This document shows positions 2,269-16,088 of a stretch of 55,291 nt of DNA, piece by piece; the stretch's first letter is position 1; each line of letters begins with the position of its first letter. The translations under genes and the position numbers were made by a program. The stretch spans positions 1-55,291 of the forward strand of contig JAFTKW010000022.1 of assembly GCA_017453065.1 (NCBI GenBank), in the 5' to 3' direction. The notes beneath the pieces are model-generated. The model searched no databases. It had not been told where the DNA came from and saw nothing but the letters and a program-made list of their open reading frames with translations. This DNA is from Lachnospiraceae bacterium. GTDB lineage: Bacteria; Bacillota; Clostridia; Lachnospirales; Lachnospiraceae.

Positions 2269-3402
2269 ATGATTATGCCGGTTTATAAAGATGAACAAAG
2301 AGGCACCTGGTATTTTAAATGTAACTATCGTGATTGGCAGGGTGAGACTAGGACGAAGCTGAAGCGAGGATTTGCTACCAAGAGGGAAGCTCAGCAGGGT
2401 GAGCGTGAGTTTCTTGATATGCAGAGCGGCAATATGAATATGAAGCTGTCCGCCTTTGCGGAAGTCTACTTTAATGATAAGGGTACGAGACTGAAGGAGC
2501 GTTCCATCATGACGAAGCGGACCCTGATTGAAACCAAGATAATTCCTTACTTCGGTGAGAAGTCCATGAATGAGATTACGGCGGTGGATATCATCAAGTG
2601 GCAGAATCTTCTGATGAAGCAGGAGTATTCGCCAACGTATCTGAGGATGATACAGAACCAGCTGACGGCGCTGTTTAACCACGCAGAGAGGTTTTATGAT
2701 TTGCGGGACAATCCTTGTAAGAAGGTAGATAAGATGGGCAGGTCAAATGCCAAGGAATTAAATTTCTGGACTAAGGATGAGTACGAGGTTTTCCTTGAAA
2801 CATTTGCTGAGGGAGATGAAATGTACCGACTGATTTTCCAGATGTTATTCTGGCTGGGATGCAGAATCGGAGAAGCGCTGGCGCTGACAAGCTCGGATAT
2901 CGATGTGGAGAAGGCAACCATAAGTGTCACCAAGACCTATTACCGAAGGAATAAAACCGATTATATCACTTCACCAAAAACGGAGAGTTCCAATCGTAAG
3001 ATTACCATTCCGAAGTTCCTGCAAGGGGAGATAAAAGAATATCTGGACAGGCAGTATGAGCTAGCACCGGATGAGCGAATCTTTCCGATCACGGACAGAG
3101 CGGTTCAGAAGAAGATGAAGCAAAAGACGGAAGAGGCGAAGCTAAAGCCTATCCGTGTGCATGATCTTCGTCACAGTCACATAGCCTTGTTAATTGAGAA
3201 GGGGCTGCAACCTCTAGTTATTGCACAGCGAGTGGGACACGACTCCGTAAATACTACCATGAACATTTACGGGCACCTGTATCCTAACAAGCAGAAGGAA
3301 GTGGCAGACCTGCTCAATGCCGAGGCTACCGGAGAGCTGGAAAACAATCTGGTGGATATGGCAACGGAGATGCGTTTTCGAAAGGCAGGTGGCTGGTCAT
3401 GA
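2269..3402 (+). CDS. int: Tyrosine recombinase (integrase) of the element
   Basis: This 377-aa site-specific recombinase integrates and excises the element at tuf. It has an N-terminal arm-binding domain (about 5-50: RGTWYFKCNYRDWQG), a SAM-like core-binding domain (about 60-150) and a catalytic domain with R199 (GCRIGEAL), H298 and R301 (HDLRH), H324 (VGHDSV) and the nucleophile Y334 (NIYGH), so it appears intact. The start may be ATG 2269, or ATG 2275 (MPVYKDE), which is better spaced from GAGAGG. The 46-bp tuf repeats are its likely core sites and the TGATAC repeats at both ends its likely arm sites. Confidence 0.95.
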   Translation: MIMPVYKDEQRGTWYFKCNYRDWQGETRTKLKRGFATKREAQQGEREFLDMQSGNMNMKLSAFAEVYFNDKGTRLKERSIMTKRTLIETKIIPYFGEKSMNEITAVDIIKWQNLLMKQEYSPTYLRMIQNQLTALFNHAERFYDLRDNPCKKVDKMGRSNAKELNFWTKDEYEVFLETFAEGDEMYRLIFQMLFWLGCRIGEALALTSSDIDVEKATISVTKTYYRRNKTDYITSPKTESSNRKITIPKFLQGEIKEYLDRQYELAPDERIFPITDRAVQKKMKQKTEEAKLKPIRVHDLRHSHIALLIEKGLQPLVIAQRVGHDSVNTTMNIYGHLYPNKQKEVADLLNAEATGELENNLVDMATEMRFRKAGGWS

Positions 3403-3645: not shown

Positions 3646-3838
3646 AAAGTGGAGCCATTTCACAAAAGGTGCTCCAAAAAGTGGAGCCATAATCGAAAAG
3701 TGGCGTCAAAAAGTGGAGCACCTTTTCAGAGGAGAGGATTTTCCAATATAAATAGGTGAGTCACAAAGTGGAGCCATAATTGAAAAGTGACGCCACAAAG
3801 TGGAGCCGTTTTTCAAAAAGGGAGACGAAAGTGGCACA
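3646..3838 (+). repeat. Repeat array with 32-bp period (AAAGTGGAGCC boxes)
   Basis: The box AAAGTGGAGCC (one copy ends CA) starts at 3646, 3678, 3710, 3765 and 3797, with three exact 32-bp steps. A related AAAGTGGCAC follows about 31 bp after the last. Between boxes lie AAAAGTGGCG or AAAAGTGACGCC half-boxes. Thirty-two bp is close to three helical turns, so all boxes face one side of the helix. No ribosome binding site or plausible protein covers the stretch. It resembles an iteron array bound by a replication or mobilization protein. Confidence 0.75.
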
Positions 3839-4088: not shown

Positions 4089-4154
4089 ATGAGCAGAGAT
4101 TTCTTAAGGAAGCTATTAATAAAACTAAATACAGATAAGAAGAGAGGGATTTGA
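4089..4154 (+). CDS. 21-aa ORF coupled to the relaxase gene
   Basis: It starts at ATG behind AAAGAAAGGAGGA and encodes a very basic peptide (MSRDFLRKLLIKLNTDKKRG plus I). Its TGA stop overlaps the relaxase ATG in the arrangement TGATG. The Shine-Dalgarno is much stronger than that of the relaxase, so ribosomes finishing here probably reinitiate on the relaxase. It may be only a coupling device or a small DNA-binding accessory peptide. Confidence 0.55.
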   Translation: MSRDFLRKLLIKLNTDKKRGI

Positions 4155-5650
4155 TGACAGGTAAGAAAGAGAAGACCATCAGTGGTGCAATGTACAGCGC
4201 ACCGAATCTGGAGCACAATCTTAGAACCCACATTCCGCCAAACTCTGTGGAGGAGCGACGGCATTTAAACATGGTATATACAGATGATTGGGGGATTACC
4301 CTGCAGCAGGTATATGAAAAGTTATTTGCCGAGCATTACCGAGTGTGGCGTGAGCGGGAAATCAAGAAAGGGCGCGGAAAAAGATTTCCACCGACCTATT
4401 ATGAGAAGATTGAGCAGGATAAGCAGAAACACCTTTGCTACGAGATTATCTGGCAGATAGGGGATATGCGGGACACGGGTTTCGTGTATAAACCGGAGGA
4501 TGCGAATCGGGCGCAGGATTTGTTGGATGAATTTGCAAAGTATCTGTTGGAACTGCCGGAGGTATGTGTGGTAACGGAGAAGGAGCTGAATGATCCGAAC
4601 TGGAAGCCAACATTTGACGCAGGACTGATTGTCCACCACATGGTTTATCACGGGGATGAAAATTCTCCCCACATTCACATGACCTATATTCCATATACAA
4701 CCAACTCCTCAAAAGGGGCACCGGTCCAGAATGCATTTGCACAGACCTTCAGGGATTTGGGGTACCCTACCACCATGAAGCAGGCGGTAACCGAGACCGG
4801 TGATTTGGTCTGGCAGAAGGATGAGGATGGCAACCTGAAGCCGCAGATGAAGCGTGACCGTTACGGTGGCGCCGATTGGGTGGAAACACAGAAGGCGGTG
4901 CTTCAGGAGAAGATGCTAAAGGAGTTTGGTTGGGAGCGTTTTTACAAAGGCTCCAATCCGAGAGGAAATCTTACCTTGTCGGACTACCGCAGGGAAAAGG
5001 CGGCAGAGATGGCGAAGGAAGAGGAACGGAAACTTGAGGATATTAAGGATAAGGTTACAGCCGGACTGGCTACCATTCAGGCACAGGCGGAGCAGATGGA
5101 GGCGATACTGGAGTCTTTGGATAAGGGAGCAGAAGCAGAGCGGCAGTTGTCAGTTAGGATTACTGATAAGAATGTGGAACTGAATGAAGTGCTACAGGAT
5201 TTGACGGATAAAAGCTATAAGCTGGATGAAGTGAAGCAGGACCTTAAGGATAAAAGTAATGAGTTGGATGAAGTTCATCAGGCTCTTACAAATAAAAAGA
5301 ATGAGGTCTGGGAGCAGGAGAAACAGCTTGAGAGCATCAAGGAGGATGCGGACGAAGCGATGCAGAAGGCAAAGCTTGCGGGAAATCTCATCGAGTATTT
5401 TAAGGGTACTAATTCCGGTGAGCGGGAGCAGGCATACTTTGATAAGATGCTGGACCTTAAATACGAGAATGAGTGTCTGAAGCGAGAGAATCAGGAGCTG
5501 AAAGCCGAGAACCGAACGCTCAAAGCGAAACTGGAAAAAGCATATGAATTCATGAGGCAGTTTACCATCAACGGAATGAATATGCTGGAACACTTCTTGC
5601 GGAGCATCGGTGAGTGGGTACAGCAGAAGGTGGCTGAAATGAGTAGGTAA
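4154..5650 (+). CDS. MobV-type relaxase (mobilization protein)
   Basis: This 498-aa relaxase should nick oriT and pilot the strand into a recipient with a borrowed secretion system. The catalytic metal-binding motif of the MobV/Pre family, HxDExxPHxH, is clear (HGDENSPHIH, H166 to H175), preceded by the N-terminal segment with conserved HN residues. Residues about 280-480 form a long coiled coil with heptads and repeated blocks (LTDKSYKLDEV, LKDKSNELDEV, LTNKKNEVWEQ). I use ATG 4154 because it overlaps the stop of the 21-codon ORF; the TTG three bases upstream is less likely. No coupling-protein gene is present. Confidence 0.9.
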   Translation: MTGKKEKTISGAMYSAPNLEHNLRTHIPPNSVEERRHLNMVYTDDWGITLQQVYEKLFAEHYRVWREREIKKGRGKRFPPTYYEKIEQDKQKHLCYEIIWQIGDMRDTGFVYKPEDANRAQDLLDEFAKYLLELPEVCVVTEKELNDPNWKPTFDAGLIVHHMVYHGDENSPHIHMTYIPYTTNSSKGAPVQNAFAQTFRDLGYPTTMKQAVTETGDLVWQKDEDGNLKPQMKRDRYGGADWVETQKAVLQEKMLKEFGWERFYKGSNPRGNLTLSDYRREKAAEMAKEEERKLEDIKDKVTAGLATIQAQAEQMEAILESLDKGAEAERQLSVRITDKNVELNEVLQDLTDKSYKLDEVKQDLKDKSNELDEVHQALTNKKNEVWEQEKQLESIKEDADEAMQKAKLAGNLIEYFKGTNSGEREQAYFDKMLDLKYENECLKRENQELKAENRTLKAKLEKAYEFMRQFTINGMNMLEHFLRSIGEWVQQKVAEMSR

Positions 5651-6027: not shown

Positions 6028-6255
6028 ATGAGAATGAATAATCAAGTGTTAGTTAATTATAATAAACTTTGGAAAAGACTTATAGATAAAAATATGAATA
6101 AAACAAAATTAAGAGAAAAGGCCCAGATTAGTACAAATGCAATTGCAAAGTTAGGAAAAAATGAATTTGTTTCTATGGAGACATTGGCGAAAATTTGTAT
6201 TGCTCTGGAGTGTGGAGTTGATGATATTTTAGAATTTACTATGAATGAAAAATAA
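6028..6255 (+). CDS. Cro/C-like controller of the restriction locus
   Basis: This 75-aa helix-turn-helix protein (HTH_26 type; KTKLREKAQISTNAIAKLGKNEFVSMETLAKICIAL) ends in the typical GVDDILEF segment. Two methionines at the start (MRMNN) are both possible; GGAGG lies 5-10 bp upstream. Such single-domain regulators often precede methylase or single-chain restriction genes, where they delay nuclease expression until DNA is methylated. Its own operator is probably the palindrome at 5950-5964. The gene is as AT-rich as the restriction gene 51 bp downstream. Confidence 0.8.
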   Translation: MRMNNQVLVNYNKLWKRLIDKNMNKTKLREKAQISTNAIAKLGKNEFVSMETLAKICIALECGVDDILEFTMNEK

Positions 6256-6306
6256 ATTTAAAGCGAGAAGTGACAGTATATAATAAATATAAGGAGATGC
6301 GTATAT

Positions 6307-9300
6307 ATGGCTAAAAAAAATATACAGGGGATAGATAAAGAAAATTTCAGAGAACTATTGGACAACATTGGTTTTAAACTAGAAGATGGAATTGGAGAAG
6401 TATATACCAAAATGTATCCAGAACATAACGGATATACAATAAAGATTGATTTTGAAAAGGAAACAATTAATTATAGAGGGACTTCGGGAAATGGTATTAC
6501 AGTTGTACGAGATACAACTTCTAATTTTAGTTATGATGAAAATGCAGTTGTTTTAGAATGTGTAGATAGACTGTTGACATTGGGATATAAACCTAAAGAT
6601 ATAACATTAGAGAAGTCTTTTCCAAATGGACATGATGCGACATATTTGGATATATTTGTTATGGAAGATAATAAATCTTATTTAATGATTGAATGTAAGA
6701 CTTTTGGTAAGAGTTATCAAAATGAATTAAAGAATATGGGATTGCTTAAAAGAGATGGACAGCCTAAAGGACAATTATTTGCATATTATTCAGCTGAACA
6801 AGTACATACTAAGTTGTTGTGTTTGTATGCGTCTAGATATATTGGTGGGATGATAGAAAGAGAAAACGATATTATAGAGACTAAAGAAGAGTGGGCTAAA
6901 CTAGGAAATATTAGAGAGATATTTGATAATTGGAATAAGAATTTTAACAATAAAGGAATATTTGAAAATGAATGTTTGCCATATAATTATCAAAATACAG
7001 GTCTTACTAGGGGAGAGTTAAAGCCTCTTACACAGGATTCAGCCACAACTATATTTAATCAGTTTCTTGAAATATTGCGTCATAACGCAGTATCTGATAA
7101 GCCTAATGCATTTAATAAAATGCTAAATCTTTTTGTGTGTAAGATTATGGATGAAGATAAACAAGATTCTGAAGAATTAGCTTTTCAGTGGAAGGAAAAC
7201 TCAGACTATAATACATTGATGTCGAATTTGGAAGAATTATATAAGCAAGGAATGAATCAATTTCTGGGAATAGATGTAACAGATTATTCTGAAAATGAGC
7301 TTAATGCAGCGATTGTTAAGTTGGATGACAAGGATAAATCTGTTGTAATTAGTATGTTACAAAAATTGAGATTGCAGAAAGGTTCTGAATTTGCATTTAC
7401 AGAAGTATATAACGAGGAATCATTTTTGATAAATGCTAAAATTGTTCGTGAAATTGTAGAATTATTACAGAAGTGGCAGTTTAGATATGGACATAAGCAA
7501 CAATTTCTTGGTGTATTTTTTGAGCAGTTATTAGCAACAAGTATTAAGCAAGAATCTGGACAATTTTTTACACCCTTACCAATAGCAAGATTCATTGTGA
7601 GTTCGTTGCCATTAAAAGAGTTAACGTATCAAAAGTTACATGATAATAATACGAAAGAACTGTTGCCGGTTGCAATTGATTATGCTTGCGGAAGTGGTCA
7701 TTTCCTTACAGAATATATGGATATTGAGCAAATGATAATTAATGAATATGATGTAGACGAAATTGGATTATCAAATTCAGCGAGAAAAAATTTGTTAAGA
7801 TGGCAAAAAAATTCCGAAGACAGACTTTCGGGAGAGTTCGAATGGGCATCTGAACATGTGTATGGAATAGAAAAGGATTACAGGTTGGTTAAGACAACCA
7901 AAATTAGTACATTTTTAAATGGTGACGGTGATGCAAATATAATTCATGCAGATGGACTTGATAAATTTACCTCAAATAAATATTCAGGTTTATTAAAGTT
8001 GAAGAATAGTTCCAAAGGTCAGAATGAACACTTTGATATTGTGATTGCGAATCCACCGTATAGTGTAAATGCCTTTAAACAGACATTAAATGCGGATAAT
8101 TCCGATTTTACATTATACGATTTAATATCAGATAAAAATGATGATATAGAGTGTCTTTTTGTAGAAAGAACTGCGCAACTCTTACACGCGGGGAAATACA
8201 GTGGATATGCTGCTATCATACTTCCGTCTTCCGTTTTTAGTAGTAATATTGATATATTGCACATTGAAACTAGAAATATAATTCTGAGAAATTTTCATAT
8301 TTGCGCCATGGTAAGAATGAGTGCAAAAGTATTTGCGAAAACACCTACTGAAACAATTATATTATTCATGAAAAAACGAGAGTACATTGATTACGTAAGT
8401 ATTCAAAATATGGTTGCTACGTTTTTTAAAAATGGTTCTGATTTTTCATATGCTGGGAACACATGTGTAATTCAATCTTATTTGAATGAGTGTTGTAGTG
8501 AACTTTCGATAGAAATGTATAAAAAATACTTAAATGGCATGGTTGAGGAAGAACATATTTATACAGATATGGTATTAAGAACATTTGAACGTGATGTGTT
8601 AGCAAATCTAAAGAAAAACAAGGCATATCAATCACTATCGGAAAAAGAAAAGAAGGAATTTATTGTAGCCAAGAAGAAAGAATATATTATTTCGCTAGAG
8701 AGGGAGAGAATAGAGGATTATTTACTTGTTTTTACGGATACAATTTTGATTGCAGATTCACTAGAAGGTGATGAAGGACAAGATTTTATTGGCTATAAGT
8801 TTTCAGAGAGGAGAACAAAAACTGGAATTAGAGATCGAAAAGATGGCGATGCGGTATCTACAAGCAAATTGTTTAATGAAAATGATTTATGGGAAGATTC
8901 TCAAAAACTTAATTATCATATAAATAAGGCGTGCAAAGGAGAAAAAACAGTTATTCCTGCTAGTCTTGCCGAACATGCGGAATGGCAAAAAGGTATTCAA
9001 TTATTCAATTGGAATGTACCTTTTGATAATAGAATAAATGTGAGATTATCTGACGCAAAAAAGGAAAGACCGATTATAGACGGGTATAAAACTATAGAGT
9101 TTGGCGTATTAACGGATTCATATAGCGGAGATACGGCACTTTCACAGGAATACATTGGAAATCATAGGGGAGATTATCCTGTATTGTCTGCAAAGACACA
9201 AGGAGATGCTATTAAAGGACATATTGATACATGGAAGTATGACATGGAATGTGTTCAAATTACCACCAATGGTGTTAATTCAGGGACAGTGATATTTAGA

Positions 9301-10227
9301 GAAAAGCAAAAATTTAGTATTGGTGCAGATACAAGGGTATATACGTTGAAGAAAGAGTTTATAGATACTGTTAGTCTGAAGTACCTTAGTTATGCTATGA
9401 AAGTTGAACTGGCTAGGGGGGGATACTCTTGGAAAAAGAAATCAGGAAAAAGCATTATAAATGATACTGTTATTCATATTCCTGTTAATGATAAAGGTGA
9501 ATATGATACGTTAGAGCAGAATCGAATTGTCGCTGAAATAGAGAAGAAAGAACAGGAAATAAGAGAAAAGGAGAATGAAATAAAAGAAAAAGACGAGTCT
9601 GTAATGCGTAAGTTTGATGAATTATTTGGAGACATAAGTTTAAATGATAAAGGCTGGAAAAGTGAGCGAGTATTACAGAAAAAAAACTTAAAAAATGGTT
9701 TGAATTATAGTTATGATGAAAATGGAGTTAGAATTCGAAGTTTAGGAGTAGGAGATTTTGAAAATAAATATTCTATAAATAATACGGATGATTTAGATGA
9801 AATTTCATTGAATCAAATGCCACCAGAAGAATACTTGCTGAAAGATAATGATATTGTTTTTGTTCGCTCTAATGGAAACAAAGAGTTAGTTGGAAGAAGT
9901 GTTATTATCAAGACGGGAAAAGAACCAGTTTCTTTTAGCGGATTTTGCATAAGATATAGAAATGATAATGAGGAAATAGATCCTGTTTATTTGCTATATG
10001 TTTTAAAAACAGAGTTTTTCCGCAAGTTATTGAGAGGAAATGGTTCAAATATTAAAAATTTAAATCAAGATATTTTGTCTGCGTTGTCAATTCCTGTACC
10101 ACCTATGCCTTTACAAGAAAAATTTTTAGAGTTTGTGTATAAAACTGAGCTAGACAAAAAGAGTATAGAAGAAGAAATTGAAAATATGCAAAATGAATTA
10201 AACAAAATTCAAGAGAGATATTTTTGA
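6307..10227 (+). CDS. Single-chain restriction-modification-specificity enzyme (type I-like/IIG)
   Basis: This 1306-aa protein joins nuclease, adenine methyltransferase and DNA recognition. Residues about 80-160 form an HSDR_N-like PD-(D/E)xK nuclease with D115, E129 and K131 (IECKTF). A helical region leads to an N6-adenine methyltransferase with SAM motif I DYACGSGHF (about 458-466) and catalytic NPPY (about 582-585). From about 925 follow two HsdS-like target recognition domains separated by a coiled coil (about 1070-1110, ending MRKFDELFGD) and a final coiled coil. It should methylate and cut the same asymmetric or bipartite site. All visible catalytic motifs are intact. Confidence 0.9.
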   Translation: MAKKNIQGIDKENFRELLDNIGFKLEDGIGEVYTKMYPEHNGYTIKIDFEKETINYRGTSGNGITVVRDTTSNFSYDENAVVLECVDRLLTLGYKPKDITLEKSFPNGHDATYLDIFVMEDNKSYLMIECKTFGKSYQNELKNMGLLKRDGQPKGQLFAYYSAEQVHTKLLCLYASRYIGGMIERENDIIETKEEWAKLGNIREIFDNWNKNFNNKGIFENECLPYNYQNTGLTRGELKPLTQDSATTIFNQFLEILRHNAVSDKPNAFNKMLNLFVCKIMDEDKQDSEELAFQWKENSDYNTLMSNLEELYKQGMNQFLGIDVTDYSENELNAAIVKLDDKDKSVVISMLQKLRLQKGSEFAFTEVYNEESFLINAKIVREIVELLQKWQFRYGHKQQFLGVFFEQLLATSIKQESGQFFTPLPIARFIVSSLPLKELTYQKLHDNNTKELLPVAIDYACGSGHFLTEYMDIEQMIINEYDVDEIGLSNSARKNLLRWQKNSEDRLSGEFEWASEHVYGIEKDYRLVKTTKISTFLNGDGDANIIHADGLDKFTSNKYSGLLKLKNSSKGQNEHFDIVIANPPYSVNAFKQTLNADNSDFTLYDLISDKNDDIECLFVERTAQLLHAGKYSGYAAIILPSSVFSSNIDILHIETRNIILRNFHICAMVRMSAKVFAKTPTETIILFMKKREYIDYVSIQNMVATFFKNGSDFSYAGNTCVIQSYLNECCSELSIEMYKKYLNGMVEEEHIYTDMVLRTFERDVLANLKKNKAYQSLSEKEKKEFIVAKKKEYIISLERERIEDYLLVFTDTILIADSLEGDEGQDFIGYKFSERRTKTGIRDRKDGDAVSTSKLFNENDLWEDSQKLNYHINKACKGEKTVIPASLAEHAEWQKGIQLFNWNVPFDNRINVRLSDAKKERPIIDGYKTIEFGVLTDSYSGDTALSQEYIGNHRGDYPVLSAKTQGDAIKGHIDTWKYDMECVQITTNGVNSGTVIFREKQKFSIGADTRVYTLKKEFIDTVSLKYLSYAMKVELARGGYSWKKKSGKSIINDTVIHIPVNDKGEYDTLEQNRIVAEIEKKEQEIREKENEIKEKDESVMRKFDELFGDISLNDKGWKSERVLQKKNLKNGLNYSYDENGVRIRSLGVGDFENKYSINNTDDLDEISLNQMPPEEYLLKDNDIVFVRSNGNKELVGRSVIIKTGKEPVSFSGFCIRYRNDNEEIDPVYLLYVLKTEFFRKLLRGNGSNIKNLNQDILSALSIPVPPMPLQEKFLEFVYKTELDKKSIEEEIENMQNELNKIQERYF

Positions 10228-10253
10228 AGAGGTATTAAAGAAAGGAAAGTGAG

Positions 10254-11762
10254 ATGAGCATTTTGGAAAAAACTTTTGACCTTTCACAATTTGATGAATA
10301 CAGAGAAGACAACAGAAGAGAAGTGAAAAAAGCAGATGGTGGTTTGCCTGTTTCTTTGTGGGACACCTATTCTTCCTTTGCAAACTGCTATGGTGGAGTT
10401 ATTATTCTTGGTGTCAAAGAAAACAAAGATGGTAGTTGGAGAACTACCGGTCTCCAGAATGCATCTAAGCTTCGCAAGGAATTTTGGGATAATATGAATA
10501 ATCCTAAGAAGGTAAATATTAATCTTTTGTCAGATGATGATGTACAGACCTATGAAGTTGGTGACAATAAGGATGTCATTATGGTTATTTATGTACCTAT
10601 GGCAAAGCGTGAGCAGAAGCCGGTATACATCAACAATGATATTTTTAATGGCACTTTCCGCCGTAATTATGAGGGCGATTATCATTGTACCAGATTGCAG
10701 GTAAAGACCATGCTTCGTGATCAGACCGAGCGTACTATGGATATGGAGGTGCTTGATAAGGTTCCGATGGAAGATTTGAATTATGATACTATTCACGGAT
10801 ACCGTAATAGCCATCGTTCTTTAAAAGAGGGACATCCTTTTGAGCGCCTAAGCGACCATGAGTATCTGAGAAGCATTGGTGCGGCTGCTATTTCTGATGA
10901 AGATGGAAAGTTGCATCCTACGGCAGCAGGTATGCTGATGTTTGGTGATGAGTATAACATTGTGCGTCACTTCCCGGAGTATTTCTTGGATTATAGAGAA
11001 GAGTTGGACCCCACCACTCGTTGGAGCGACCGTTTGCAGTCAAGTTCCGGTGAATGGTCCGGAAATGTGTGCGACTTCTATTTTAGGGTTTATAACAAGA
11101 TTATCAAAGACATTAAGGTGCCTTTTAAAATGGTCGGTGGCGAACGTGTTGACGATACTCCGGTACACAAGGCGCTTCGTGAGGCTTTGGCAAACTGCCT
11201 GATTAATGCAGATTATCACGGTTTGCGTGGTGTTGTTATCCGTAAGGAACCGGACAAGCTGGTTTTGGCAAATCCGGGTTATGTTAGAACGGGTAAAAAG
11301 CAGATGCGTCTTGGTGGCGAATCCGATCCTCGAAACAAGGCTCTTATGAAAATGTTTAATCTTATTAATATCGGTGAACGCGCCGGAAGCGGTGTGCCGA
11401 ATATCTTTAATGTGTGGGCAGATGAAGGCTGGGAAGAACCGGTGATTGAGGAGAGATTTGATCCGGATAGAACGGTACTGTCGCTTTCTTTTTTGAAAAA
11501 AGTGTCGGAAAAAAGTGGCGAAAAAAAAGTGGCGAAAAAAAGTGGCGAAAAAAAAGTGACGAAAAAAACACAAGAAAAGTACGATGCAATTTTGAACGCT
11601 ATGCAGCATGACAAGTGGTATAAGGCTTCTGAATTTGAAACTGTTGCCGGTGTTAAAGAGTCAAGAATTAAGGTGTTGCTTAAGGATATGTTGGAGCAAG
11701 GCTTGATTGAAAGTACTGGTAGTACTAAGGGGAAGATGTATAAGAAAATTAATGTGAATTAA
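10254..11762 (+). CDS. AlbA_2/HATPase_c_4 putative DNA-binding protein with winged helix
   Basis: This 502-aa protein has an N-terminal Schlafen AlbA_2 domain (about 10-130: EDNRREVKKADGG, NCYGGVIILGV), a middle RecG-like/HATPase_c_4 region (about 300-395: REALANCLINADYHG, INIGERAGSGVPNIF), a lysine-rich repeat linker (about 408-435: KSGEKKVAKKSGEKKV) and a C-terminal winged helix (about 440-502). The role is unproven; such proteins are often found beside restriction genes and are annotated as regulators or helicase-like. It lies 26 bp after the restriction gene with AAAGGAAAG upstream. Its codon use is clearly more GC-rich than both neighbours, so it may have joined the cluster separately. 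The linker is encoded by A-tracts of 6-8 bases. Confidence 0.82.
   Translation: MSILEKTFDLSQFDEYREDNRREVKKADGGLPVSLWDTYSSFANCYGGVIILGVKENKDGSWRTTGLQNASKLRKEFWDNMNNPKKVNINLLSDDDVQTYEVGDNKDVIMVIYVPMAKREQKPVYINNDIFNGTFRRNYEGDYHCTRLQVKTMLRDQTERTMDMEVLDKVPMEDLNYDTIHGYRNSHRSLKEGHPFERLSDHEYLRSIGAAAISDEDGKLHPTAAGMLMFGDEYNIVRHFPEYFLDYREELDPTTRWSDRLQSSSGEWSGNVCDFYFRVYNKIIKDIKVPFKMVGGERVDDTPVHKALREALANCLINADYHGLRGVVIRKEPDKLVLANPGYVRTGKKQMRLGGESDPRNKALMKMFNLINIGERAGSGVPNIFNVWADEGWEEPVIEERFDPDRTVLSLSFLKKVSEKSGEKKVAKKSGEKKVTKKTQEKYDAILNAMQHDKWYKASEFETVAGVKESRIKVLLKDMLEQGLIESTGSTKGKMYKKINVN
11497..11570 (+). repeat. A-tract tandem repeat inside the AlbA_2 gene
   Basis: Units of A(6-8)GTGGCG or GTGACG repeat about five times in this segment and encode alternating KSGEKK and KVAKK. 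Runs of eight A are prone to polymerase slippage, and a one-base change would remove the downstream winged helix. In the present sequence the frame is open. Confidence 0.8.
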
Positions 11763-11786
11763 TATAAGGTATTGGAGTGGGTACAA

Positions 11787-14408
11787 ATGAGTGAAATTGT
11801 CGGTAGAGAGGTAAAACGTTGGTCGGAAACACTAGCGGAACTGAATGAATACGATATAACATTGGTCAATATTTTGCTGAAACATTATGAAGATCTTATA
11901 GAAGCGGGTGGGACTGCTGGAGGTAAAAGAGCTAATAAAATTGCGGAGTATATTGGTGAGAAGCAAGGTGTATGTGATAAAACTATTGAGACTTTGTCAT
12001 TTGGTTCGGAAAAAAATACAAAGAAGATAAAGAAATTGAATGTCTTGGAAGTAGATTCATTTAGAGGTTTTTCGGTGAGTCGAACATTTAATCTTGATAA
12101 GCAATATGTATTTCTATATGGACCGAATGGATCTGGCAAATCAAGTTTTAGTGAAGCCTTAGAATACGGTTTGCTTGGTATTATTGAAGAAGCAGAAGCA
12201 AACAAAATCAAACTATCTACTTACATAAAGAATACTGCAACAAAAAAGGGGAAAAAGCCTATAATTACTTGTACGTATGAGGATGGATCAGAAGATGAAG
12301 CTATAATTGATTATGATGCTTATAGATTTGCATTTGTAGAAAAAAATAGAATTGCGGATTTTTCTCATATTAGTGTATTGAATTCTAAGAATCAGAATGA
12401 GAGAATAGCTGCTTTATTTGGACTATCAGCCTTTAACGAGTTTGTACAAGGGTTCACGACAAATTTTGATGAGAAATATTTAACAACAAGTTCTGTTACG
12501 GAGAAACTATTTGAAGAAAAAAAGCTATCGAGAGATTCTAAAGAAAAACAACTTCAAGAAAGCAAAGATGAATTAGATAGAATTAAAGATTTGCTTGTAG
12601 AAGAAATTGCAAAACTTAAAAAACAGGAAATAACAGAGGTTGACAGTGCATTAGATTATCTTGATAATCCTACGACAGGTGTTTTGACTGTAAAAATTGC
12701 AGAGCGAGATAAACAGTATGTTACTCCAATACCGGTAGAACATATTGAAAACTTTATAAATTACATTTTGAAATTGCAGAAAAATCTTAAAACCGTTAAT
12801 GAAAATAGAAACAAATTATCGGATATGGCTCTGCAGGTAAATTATAAAAATTTGTATGAGATTATATCTGAATTGGAAGAAACGACGAGTTGTCCTGCTT
12901 GTGGAACGAATTTGGCTATTGCTGAAAAAAATCCATATGAATATGCTAAAGAGCAGTTAAAAACATTTACTGAAATTGAACTGATACAGAAAAAAATCAA
13001 TGATGCAGCTCAAAATGCTAGGGAGAACATTCGTGAGATATTAGATTTTATTTTGGGAAATCAAGAATTTTTTAAACTATTACAAATAAAAACAGACAAC
13101 ATGGTTTCCGTAGAATTGGAAGATATTCGAATGTATGTGGATACTGTGAGTAAGTGGTTTGAATTTTGTGAAGAATTAAAGGAATTTGACAAGATAGTTG
13201 CCCGAAATAAAATAGAAGAATACAATAAGGTGGCAAACAAATCAAATTCTGAATATGATCAACAAGTTGCAGAGCTTAGTGCTGTAAGAAACGCACTTAT
13301 GACATTAAAAACTCAGATGAATGAAAAGGAGCAGATAATAAAGAGATGCCAAAAAGAGATTAAGGAGTTTGATGAACAAAGCGAGGATACAATAAAGAAA
13401 ATTCAGGAAGAAAAAAGAATTTGTGAATTCAATGTAAAAATTATAGAAGCTTATAATAAGATAATTGGTAGTTTGGTTAATTATAATAATGAGTTGCCGA
13501 GGCAGATGGCACAGGATTTAGAACAGAAAATCGTCGATTATTATAATACAATCAATCAGGATGATGCAGATTTTGAAAAGATAGAAGAATTAATTTTACC
13601 GGATGCAACTTCTGATAAAATGTATATCACATTTGCTGATGGTAGCACATCGGAGGCGTTACAAGTTTTAAGTGAAGGCCATATTAAAATATTGGGCTTG
13701 TCAATTCTTTTAGCTAAAGCGGTGCATGATAATTTAAACTTTATTATATTTGACGATATTGTAAATGCCATTGATGATGATCATAGAAATGGTGTGGCGG
13801 ATTTATTAATGAATCATGTCGATTTTGCAAACACACAGATTATATTGTCTACACACGGAGACCAATTCATTTTTAAATTGCAAGATAAGTTAGGTCAAAA
13901 GAGAGTAAAAGAAAATGCTGTTGTATATAAATTTATTCCAGCAGATTCATTGGAGGAACGAGGTGTAATAGTAGAATACTCTGATTCAAAAACACCATTG
14001 ATGGCTGCAGAGGAAAAGTACAATGAAAATGAAACAAAAGATGCTGCTTCAAAATGTCGACAAGCAATGGAGTGTGTTGCATATAATTTATGGAATTTAA
14101 TTGCTAAATCTTCAGATGCAATGATATCTGTAGGGATGAGAAGTCCTAAAAGTTTACCGGATTTAAGTTCTATAGTGGATGGTTTGATTAAGAAAACTGG
14201 TAAGATAAAGGGTATGGAAGATATAAACGCAGAGCTCAAGAGCCTTAAAGAACCTGGAAATTGGCGTGTTCTGAATAAAGGTACTCATTACGAAGATGAA
14301 CAGAAGGAATTTGAGCGAGCAGATGTAAAATGTGTTTATGATCATTTGGTTAAGTTAGATGATATGATTAGAAATACGAAGATTGCAAATATTGCTGAGA
14401 CAAAATGA
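11787..14408 (+). CDS. Rad50/RloC-like zinc-hook ATPase
   Basis: This 873-aa SMC-like ATPase has a Walker A GPNGSGKSS (about 112-120), a long coiled coil with one CPACG zinc-hook motif near its middle (about 369-373), an ABC signature LSEGH (about 627), Walker B FIIFDDIVNAID (about 650-661) and H-loop STHGD (about 687). The C-terminal 150 residues are not part of a normal SMC. They carry R758, E762 and H834, like the R-E-H triad of PrrC/RloC anticodon nucleases, though a HEPN-type Rx6H reading (RVLNKGTH) is also possible. The start at 11787 follows GGAGTGG; the TTG at 11772 is less likely. Its stop overlaps the next gene frame (ATGA). Confidence 0.85.
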   Translation: MSEIVGREVKRWSETLAELNEYDITLVNILLKHYEDLIEAGGTAGGKRANKIAEYIGEKQGVCDKTIETLSFGSEKNTKKIKKLNVLEVDSFRGFSVSRTFNLDKQYVFLYGPNGSGKSSFSEALEYGLLGIIEEAEANKIKLSTYIKNTATKKGKKPIITCTYEDGSEDEAIIDYDAYRFAFVEKNRIADFSHISVLNSKNQNERIAALFGLSAFNEFVQGFTTNFDEKYLTTSSVTEKLFEEKKLSRDSKEKQLQESKDELDRIKDLLVEEIAKLKKQEITEVDSALDYLDNPTTGVLTVKIAERDKQYVTPIPVEHIENFINYILKLQKNLKTVNENRNKLSDMALQVNYKNLYEIISELEETTSCPACGTNLAIAEKNPYEYAKEQLKTFTEIELIQKKINDAAQNARENIREILDFILGNQEFFKLLQIKTDNMVSVELEDIRMYVDTVSKWFEFCEELKEFDKIVARNKIEEYNKVANKSNSEYDQQVAELSAVRNALMTLKTQMNEKEQIIKRCQKEIKEFDEQSEDTIKKIQEEKRICEFNVKIIEAYNKIIGSLVNYNNELPRQMAQDLEQKIVDYYNTINQDDADFEKIEELILPDATSDKMYITFADGSTSEALQVLSEGHIKILGLSILLAKAVHDNLNFIIFDDIVNAIDDDHRNGVADLLMNHVDFANTQIILSTHGDQFIFKLQDKLGQKRVKENAVVYKFIPADSLEERGVIVEYSDSKTPLMAAEEKYNENETKDAASKCRQAMECVAYNLWNLIAKSSDAMISVGMRSPKSLPDLSSIVDGLIKKTGKIKGMEDINAELKSLKEPGNWRVLNKGTHYEDEQKEFERADVKCVYDHLVKLDDMIRNTKIANIAETK

Positions 14409-14437
14409 AGTTCAAGAGAGATTTGGAGGTGAGAAAA

Positions 14438-15535
14438 ATGGCGCAACAAGAAAATCCCATCGTTTTTATTAGTTATTCACAAGATTCATTATCTTTTGCA
14501 GATCAAGTACTTTCTTTTGCCAACAAATTGAGAAGTGAAGGAATTGATGCTATTCTGGATCAGTATGAAGAGGCACCTTCTGAAGGGTGGCCAAGATGGA
14601 TGGAAAATAGTATAAATAGAGCTGACTATGTTATAGTGATTGGTTCAAAAGGATATTATGATAAAATATATGGAAATGTAGAACCGGGAAAAGGTCGGGG
14701 TGTTAAATGGGAAGGGAATCTCATTTATCAGAAATTATATATGTCGGATGCAATGAATGGCAAATATATTCCGGTTGTTTTTGATGAGAGCGATTTGGAG
14801 TATATTCCAACTCCGCTTCAAGGAAGCACTTATTATAATATTAGCAACGAGGATGGATATAATAGATTATATTGGAGATTGAGAGGCATTAATACGAAAG
14901 AAAAACCGCCACTTGGAAAATTGAGACCACTGCCAGAAAAAGAAAGAAAAAATTTATTTATCACTTCGATGATAGATCTTGAGGCGTGGAATAAAGCAGT
15001 TTGGCGTGGGGCAGGTTTTGTATTAGGATATATGCCGTTACCGGCGTTGCTATTGCCTTTTGTTAACGAAAAATACGCAATTAAGATTTTTGAAGATTGG
15101 ATAAAGATAATAGGAAGAGATGATAAAAAAGAAGATATAAGGATTGCATTAGTAGAAGGAGATGTACCGGGGGAGGCATCTGGATATTACGTAGTTGTTG
15201 GAAATAATATTGATGAAGCTATGAAGCGAGCGGAAAAAGGTGGTTTTTCTGCGGACGAGACAATGATACTTAATGTGTCTCGTATAATTCGTGCAAATCC
15301 TAGAGATGATTTCCAATCATTCAATTACTTTAAAGAGGCATATCATCAATATGGAGAATACATGTTAATGCCTGCTGTATTGAATGAAATAACTGGAGAA
15401 ATCAAACCACTTCCGCAGTATGGAATACATAAGAAACAGTTGGTTTATAGGCACATTTCAGAGATAACAGAAAATGACCAAGATGCTATTTTGCTTCAGA
15501 AGAATAAGCCGTTTGCAACATATAAGCCAAAGTAG
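14438..15535 (+). CDS. SEFIR-domain (TIR-like) protein with unknown C-terminal domain
   Basis: This 365-aa protein has a SEFIR/TIR-like domain at about 6-145: VFISYSQDS, GIDAILDQYEEAPSEGWPRW, YVIVIGSKGYYDK and GVKWEGNLIYQKLY are family hallmarks. Bacterial SEFIR/TIR proteins in defence loci often hydrolyse NAD or make signal nucleotides. The remaining 220 residues (DLEAWNKAVWRGAGFVLGYMP; GEASGYYVVVGNN; IIRANPRDDFQSFNYF) match nothing I recognise. I chose ATG 14438 because GGAGGTGAG lies 8 bp upstream; an ATG at 14405 overlaps the ATPase stop. Either way the gene sits directly behind the hook ATPase, suggesting joint function. Confidence 0.85.
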   Translation: MAQQENPIVFISYSQDSLSFADQVLSFANKLRSEGIDAILDQYEEAPSEGWPRWMENSINRADYVIVIGSKGYYDKIYGNVEPGKGRGVKWEGNLIYQKLYMSDAMNGKYIPVVFDESDLEYIPTPLQGSTYYNISNEDGYNRLYWRLRGINTKEKPPLGKLRPLPEKERKNLFITSMIDLEAWNKAVWRGAGFVLGYMPLPALLLPFVNEKYAIKIFEDWIKIIGRDDKKEDIRIALVEGDVPGEASGYYVVVGNNIDEAMKRAEKGGFSADETMILNVSRIIRANPRDDFQSFNYFKEAYHQYGEYMLMPAVLNEITGEIKPLPQYGIHKKQLVYRHISEITENDQDAILLQKNKPFATYKPK

Positions 15536-15953
15536 GTTTGGCGAGTGAAAAACTCCCGGTTAAAGTATTTTGAGCAAAGATACACACAATCTCCTTTCGT
15601 GTGTACTTTTACTTGACTGTGTATCACGCCACAGCGTTATGGCACCTGTGTCACATTAAAAAACGGAACATGGTATCCTCTGATACAAAAAATCATGTAT
15701 CAAACCTTCCAAATCGTGTATCACAATCTGCAAAATATGTATCATATCTTAATTTTTGTAAAAAATGCCGATTTACATCGTTTTTCGCCCATGCTATACC
15801 ATGGCTATGGTGGACGAAAAAGCGTGATACGTTTTTGATACTTTCCCCTGGAAAAAGGCTAAATAATAGGTAAAATACCCATGATATGAGTCAAAAAACG
15901 GCAAAAACCGTAACAATTAAGTTTCTAAATAAGCAAAATCAGACCGTGAGGGT
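15536..15953. other. Non-coding right end with integrase arm-type repeats
   Basis: No convincing gene is seen. TGTATCA starts at 15696, 15717 and 15738, exactly 21 bp apart, with another at 15620 and the reverse orientation TGATACA at 15681. A pair of TGATAC 11 bp apart (15825 and 15836) lies in the segment 15823-15843, which matches the left end. These are likely integrase and excisionase sites. Confidence 0.6.
15823..15843 (+). repeat. Right-end integrase arm-type site pair (candidate)
   Basis: This segment matches 1178-1198 at 17 of 21 positions and keeps the two TGATAC boxes 11 bp apart in the same orientation. It lies about 110 bp inside the right attachment repeat. Confidence 0.6.
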
Positions 15954-15999
15954 GGACGTACAGTAGGTTCAGGTCGTGTTGCTACAATCATCGAGTAAT
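15954..15999 (+). repeat. Right attachment-site repeat (displaced tuf 3' end)
   Basis: These 46 bp are identical to the end of tuf, including the stop codon, but have no start or upstream tuf sequence beyond the two-mismatch extension to 15945. This is presumably the original chromosomal tuf end, separated from its gene by the element. Confidence 0.93.
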
Positions 16000-16057: not shown

Positions 16058-16088
16058 GAACAGCCCTCTGGTTTCCAGAGGGCTGTTC
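16058..16088 (+). terminator. Probable native tuf terminator, now orphaned
   Basis: GAACAGCCCTCTGG and CCAGAGGGCTGTTC form a perfect 14-bp stem with a TTT loop, followed by an imperfect T-rich stretch. It lies 59 bp after the displaced tuf stop, so it most likely ended the tuf transcript before the element inserted. Confidence 0.8.

Follow-up and report, generated by a model that had tools for sequence, protein, structure and literature searches.

A probable layered anti-phage cassette with an ABC-hook-HEPN ATPase on a tuf-integrated element of a Lachnospiraceae bacterium

Gene content of the defence island

A stretch of 55,291 nucleotides (the window) from contig JAFTKW010000022.1 of a Lachnospiraceae bacterium was analysed, in which a row of five genes at positions 6028-15535 encodes a controller-like protein, a single-chain restriction enzyme, a Schlafen-type protein, a zinc-hook ATPase and a SEFIR protein. 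Domains were identified by Pfam and PADLOC searches of the translated open reading frames (ORFs). The five genes and two parts of the ATPase are listed below.

6028-6255, + strand: helix-turn-helix (HTH) controller-like gene (HTH_26, E 2e-17; start possibly ATG 6034)
6307-10227, + strand: single-chain type IIG restriction-modification-specificity (R-M-S) protein, 1306 aa (PADLOC REase_MTase_IIG, 4e-187, 622 bits, residues 9-1305)
10254-11762, + strand: Schlafen AlbA_2, minimal HATPase and winged HTH (wHTH) protein, 502 aa (SLFN_AlbA_2, E 2e-7; HATPase_c_4, E 3e-10)
11787-14408 (ORF from TTG 11772), + strand: ATP-binding cassette (ABC; SMC/Rad50-like) ATPase with zinc hook and HEPN domain, 873 aa (SMC_N/AAA_21; AlphaFold2 (AF2) model)
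12891-12902, + strand: CPAC motif of the zinc hook, which the model places in the loop joining long helices 318-362 and 383-424
13995-14375, + strand: HEPN-like domain by fold, with triad R (14058-14060), E (14070-14072) and H (14286-14288)
14438-15535 (ORF from ATG 14405), + strand: bSEFIR-type protein, 365 aa from its likely start (PADLOC bSEFIR, 2e-58; SEFIR, TIR_2)

All five ORFs lie consecutively on one strand, as an earlier note made from the letters of this DNA had described, and its view that they form a composite defence island whose first layer is restriction is supported. Its gene inventory, including the controller gene recognised by HTH_26, was correct; the C-terminal HEPN domain of the ATPase and the surrounding mobile element had been overlooked. 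The likely intergenic gaps along the row are 51, 26, 24 and 29 nt, and because these are short the operon-like row, judged from strand and spacing, is taken to be real. The G+C content at third codon positions (GC3) is 0.21, 0.23, 0.41, 0.25 and 0.28 in gene order, a spread (0.21-0.41) that suggests mosaic assembly of the island.

The ATPase probably starts at ATG 11787 and not at TTG 11772, since a single nucleotide between these codons is deleted in its closest relative (locus L038). The ATPase and SEFIR genes had been said to overlap or nearly so. Their 4-nt ORF overlap depends on an 11-residue N-terminal extension of the SEFIR protein (from ATG 14405), absent from the relatives in L134 and L037, and is likely a start-codon artefact; the near-adjacency stands, with a gap of 29 nt. 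The SEFIR start is probably ATG 14438, because GGAGGTGAG lies upstream at 14425-14433 and L134 and L037 start there. The ORF of a further relative (L133) is open further upstream, making it uninformative on this point, and was trimmed there for alignment.

Analysis of the R-M-S protein revealed a whole-length match to the PADLOC type IIG model and Pfam matches to N6_Mtase, Eco57I and Methylase_S, in keeping with the complete single-chain restriction enzyme proposed earlier, the nuclease match alone (HSDR_N_2) falling below the cut-off. Relatives at E 1e-60 were found in 6 other genomes of 200, and neither the ATPase nor a bSEFIR-type gene is present in their fetched flanks. In the same-genus genome G022 (L194) a type IIG R-M-S relative (9478-13245) and a different SEFIR-domain protein (6910-8400) lie about 1.1 kb apart.

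The third protein carries the AlbA_2 and HATPase domains attributed to it earlier, its wHTH resting on an MCM_C match below the cut-off, and is a probable RNase or regulator. Its eight relatives in the genus (58-78% identity) occupy diverse positions, one (L125) after a type I restriction-modification (R-M) operon, and none of the eight adjoins the ATPase. Repeats of 13-14 nt (AAAAAAGTGGCGA-like) at 11496-11576 of the window encode a Lys-rich linker of this protein, the length of which could vary by slippage.

The ATPase and the SEFIR protein

The AF2 model of the ATPase (predicted local distance difference test score 85.5) has Rad50 and SMC proteins as its best Foldseek matches. This Rad50-like fold, the SMC_N/AAA_21 matches and the CPAC hook bear out the earlier description as an SMC/RloC-like zinc-hook ATPase; RloC and PrrC are not named among the best 50 Foldseek matches listed for the full model. 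Alignment of the family (88 rows) revealed that 83-86 of the rows keep the residues of Walker A (G/N/G/G/K), SEGH, DD and the H-loop, with SEGH and DD in 86 each and the Walker A lysine in 83. The cysteine pair of the hook is kept in 87 rows and the remaining row is gapped. The model also has an extra N-terminal helical domain (residues 2-59).

The C-terminal domain has a HEPN-like helical fold, and the polar residues expected for catalysis are conserved in it; the Foldseek E-values are modest (best 0.065), and a PDB sequence search with this domain gave one chance-level match (E 0.73). After the gapped rows L069, L112 and L114 were left out, the triad was found in 85 of 85 covering rows, with an E-to-H spacing of x71 here and x71-84 in the family. 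While fold, triad and hook position were computed directly, RNase activity of this domain, like the NADase activity of the SEFIR protein, the triggers and an abortive outcome, is what we infer from family membership.

The last protein of the row had been called a TIR-like SEFIR protein, and both Pfam SEFIR (E 3e-15) and PADLOC bSEFIR (197 bits; residues 11-358 against profile positions 31-380 of 412) agree. It also matches the solved SEFIR domain 5y8e (E 1e-10), and its conserved Glu lies at 14711-14713; all 4 aligned proteins share the W-E pair unchanged. SEFIR defence is a single-gene system. The protein of the window probably depletes NAD+ upon sensing infection. SEFIR defence is described as NAD+ depletion with a narrow phage range in Streptococcus thermophilus (PMC12322248), and SEFIR is named among NAD+-depleting systems (PMC11559045).

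Linkage and distribution

A total of 98 ATPase loci were used for linkage: at least 78 from a scan of genome contigs, which is a sample, 8 from plasmids (of 32 matching records), 8 from viral contigs, 3 from E. coli (of 20 genomes) and one from genome G203. Near-duplicates among them are L043/L045 and probably L063/L154, the latter because their SEFIR-like matches have identical coordinates relative to the ATPase. The earlier note had proposed the ATPase as DNA sensor and the SEFIR protein as effector of a two-gene system, to be checked by a search for co-occurrence. In this search a SEFIR gene followed the ATPase in 0 of the 85 loci with at least 1.3 kb of downstream sequence, and a SEFIR profile found no neighbouring SEFIR gene except the window's own; this is the outcome that the note itself had named as refuting its proposal. 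In L063/L154 a SEFIR-like ORF lies about 3.7 kb upstream of the ATPase on the opposite strand, not adjacent to it.

The closest relative, L038, has a frameshifted ORF and matches the window at 81.7 and 84.3% DNA identity in two pieces, which begin at the Schlafen gene's end (11730) and reach the stop codon of the ATPase (14409). Its homology ends at the ATPase stop, and no SEFIR gene is present within the 232 bases left on the contig. Conversely, the ATPase is not beside the three full-length SEFIR relatives examined, which lie in an apparently conjugative region as far as the sequence looks (L133, genome G127), in a BREX row between BrxC and a PglX-like gene with PglZ and BrxL around (L134, genome G152; 9199-10308), and behind a gene annotated as AbiEii on a plasmid of Lactiplantibacillus (L037). 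The window's pair thus stands alone among the loci examined, and a dedicated ATPase/SEFIR pair was rejected on linkage.

At E 1e-20 in the window's class, the ATPase profile matched 3 of 391 genomes (its own and two partial matches) and the SEFIR profile 8 of 391, seven over the N-terminal domain only. Among 299 genomes of the family at E 0.001, 21 have some SEFIR match; it covers most of the length in the window's own genome, G127 and G152 only, and the C-terminal half in G028. The ATPase occurs in 20 of 5426 E. coli genomes, 17 with most of the gene, and in the three regions inspected it stands in islands or, close to ssrA, next to tail genes of prophages, a setting in keeping with a self-sufficient gene. 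The 8 viral-contig loci were found with an alignment query; the single query P0004 found nothing there. In G203 (L132:3182-7529) a 55% relative lies between genes that look like a carbamoyltransferase and a small nucleoside deoxyribosyltransferase.

Analysis of ATPase neighbours revealed recurrence both inside and outside R-M and BREX loci. The order hsdM-hsdS-ATPase was found in L043, L045 and L099 and hsdM-hsdS-ATPase-hsdR in L057; further contexts are hsdS (L047), hsdM-S-R (L041), HsdM 2.5 kb away (L102) and type II R-M genes by annotation (L029, L032, L034). Genes of PF02384 flank the ATPase in 4 of 30 loci, which were taken from the 78 of the genome-contig set, against 0.24 expected from genome density, after coordinate coincidences lacking a fitting ORF were dropped (L040, L050, L051, L058, L066, one in L043). 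Neighbours are mostly diverse, with 152 Pfam families over 150 neighbour ORFs, each in at most 5 (5 long ones of 155 neighbour ORFs were left out and locus L109 was skipped). BREX contexts are L039 (PglX-like, PglZ) and L060/L061 (BrxL). In the latter two (L060:10652-11248, L061:10568-11797) an SbcD-like gene (Metallophos; in L061 also SbcD_C) stands directly behind the ATPase, as though a nuclease had been recruited to partner this Rad50-like protein.

The surrounding mobile element

The island lies between two direct repeats, preceded by other genes of the element, as follows.

987-1041, no strand: attL, the tuf 3' end as a 55-bp direct repeat (53/55 identical to 15945-15999, final 46 perfect)
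1258-1755, - strand: HTH gene, probable element repressor (HTH_3, E 7e-11)
2269-3402, + strand: tyrosine integrase (Phage_integrase, E 2e-20; Phage_int_SAM_3; Arm-DNA-bind_4)
4151-5650, + strand: putative MobV-like relaxase, 499 aa, with long C-terminal coiled coil (HGDENSPHIH, i.e. HxDExxPHxH, in translation)
15945-15999, no strand: attR, displaced copy of the tuf 3' end (55-bp repeat, 2 mismatches to 987-1041)
16058-16088, + strand: strong GC-rich hairpin of 14 bp immediately beyond attR, which probably was the terminator of tuf originally

The ORF at 129-1040 is tuf (EF-Tu), matching GTP_EFTU and its domains 2 and 3. Between the repeats follow the HTH gene, the integrase, the HxDExxPHxH protein and the five island genes. 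Integrase and att repeats are present, and the relaxase is called from its motif, which we take to be of MobV type, and a weak NCBIfam MobV match below the cut-off (E 0.006); no relaxase family is among its Pfam matches at E 5. The island is probably the cargo of an integrative element of about 15 kb at the 3' end of tuf, which is probably mobilisable. After a DUF6061 gene, AAAGTGGAGCC-type repeat units (four of 32 nt, two of 65 nt) occupy 3646-3828, and just before attR (15601-15873) lies a 90-aa ORF with no Pfam family that may be non-coding. In the look for an empty tuf site, the flanking DegV-like gene had relatives at only 30-33% identity among the best matches from 31 genomes of the genus, and no such site emerged.

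Interpretation of the cassette

Overall, we consider it quite probable that the tuf-integrated element of about 15 kb carries a layered anti-phage cassette, in which the type IIG enzyme is combined with three separate backup effectors. As a first layer the R-M-S protein would modify self DNA and cut unmodified DNA, and the further layers would be the separate effectors encoded in the same row. The Schlafen-HATPase-wHTH protein would be an RNA-targeting effector (a probable RNase or a regulator). The ATPase, similar to RloC and PrrC, may sense DNA damage or failed restriction through its Rad50-like head and coiled coil and then release the HEPN RNase, stopping translation; the stand-alone bSEFIR protein would be an NAD+-depleting last resort. 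Most likely each module has its own trigger, with DNA cleavage first and the RNA-targeting and NAD+-depleting effectors last.

That the modules were merely gathered at a hotspot, each acting alone without functional layering and the Schlafen protein being just a regulator, is unlikely, though it carries some weight. The mosaic GC3 and the varied neighbours of the eight Schlafen relatives speak for such a coincidence; the common strand, the short gaps and the Schlafen-ATPase order preserved in L038 speak against it. We regard as improbable a PrrC-like tripwire, in which the type IIG enzyme physically silences the ABC-HEPN protein (perhaps others too) until phage anti-restriction releases it. 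Such a tripwire would suit the shared gene row, the PrrC-EcoprrI precedent (excerpts of PMC3710099) and the loci where the ATPase comes right behind hsdS (L043, L045, L099, and L057, which has hsdR on the other side of it), but the six genomes with R-M-S relatives have no ATPase in the fetched flanks and ATPase neighbours are mostly non-R-M genes. More doubtful still is the type IIG enzyme as shared guard over the ABC-hook-HEPN RNase, a Schlafen RNase and the SEFIR NADase, so that anti-restriction fires all three; if true, a mobile element that integrates at tuf would carry a PrrC-style tripwire with a single-chain restriction enzyme at its base. Least probable is the dedicated two-gene system with a hook ATPase that senses DNA and activates the SEFIR NADase: the same-strand adjacency (4-nt overlap or 29-nt gap) and the separate effectors of hook/SMC-like ATPases in Lamassu (LmuACB structures are among the Foldseek matches listed) favour it, but the linkage results, the closest relative, the ATPase's own HEPN domain and the SEFIR protein itself, with a bSEFIR match along most of the chain and occurrences elsewhere apart from the ATPase, speak against it.

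The cassette of separate backups has consequences for annotation. These ATPase-SEFIR neighbours should not enter catalogues as a new two-gene system; they point to a widespread ABC-hook-HEPN family found in plasmids, prophages, R-M and BREX loci and E. coli, which, for the one protein tested, PADLOC registers only through matches of LmuB- and mad3-like kind. If the HEPN activity proves real, the family would stand with RloC and PrrC as a second layer that recurs behind restriction, and the cassette would become a compact natural case for setting independent stacked backups against a tripwire.

Comparison with known systems

The earlier statement that no named system fits holds in that no single PADLOC system covers the set, and does not hold for the SEFIR gene, which alone is a modelled bSEFIR. 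Excerpts of PMC2610378 describe RloC with the same architecture as the ATPase and the motif R-x3-E-x36-52-H, mutagenised in a Geobacillus protein. In both, a coiled coil tipped with CxxC interrupts the Rad50-like head, the C-terminal domain is HEPN-like with R-x3-E...H, and linkage to restriction is occasional. RloC, an anticodon nuclease, was represented here by one protein, L159, found by AAA_13, with a CPFC hook and an RloC-type motif of 44 residues. Unlike it, the ATPase has no Pfam AAA_13 match at E 0.05 and has the N-terminal helical domain, which L159 does not. The profile of 88 ATPase relatives gave no match to L159 at E 10, and the single blastp match below E 1 between the two proteins lies close to Walker A (E 0.004). 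Because of the E-to-H spacing (71-84 in its family against 36-52 in RloC) and the lack of an L159 profile match, the ATPase is RloC-like by anatomy and a non-member by sequence and spacing; canonical RloC membership was rejected on the x71 spacing and the AAA_13 and L159 comparisons.

Further ABC-HEPN families were noted in 2013 (excerpts of PMC3710099); for APECO1_4465, named there, no ABC-HEPN gene was recognisable by annotation in the guessed APEC O1 region. PrrC-EcoprrI is likewise an ABC-HEPN protein beside a restriction enzyme, as in L057, but the ATPase here has a hook and its restriction partner is a single-chain type IIG enzyme. Lamassu/ABC-3C systems share an SMC-like ATPase, with LmuB profile similarity (PADLOC, 3.8e-26), and differ in that the effector-like domain is fused to the ATPase here. 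Lamassu was rejected, LmuA and LmuC being absent among the PADLOC matches listed for the five proteins (for the R-M protein, the best 25 of 56). The SEFIR protein is an ordinary bSEFIR apart from its place in a stacked cassette. In excerpts of PMC12839542, Schlafen-HATPase-wHTH is a BREX/BR backup effector architecture in at least 1017 taxa. BREX/BR systems resemble the cassette in having this backup and HEPN backups beside a core, and the bSEFIR relative in L134 and the ATPase in L039 lie inside BREX gene rows; here, by contrast, three stacked backups accompany a type IIG core. Hence the parts and the strategy are known, and as far as our searches show the new variants are the combination, the tuf-borne element and a hook-HEPN family with its own spacing.
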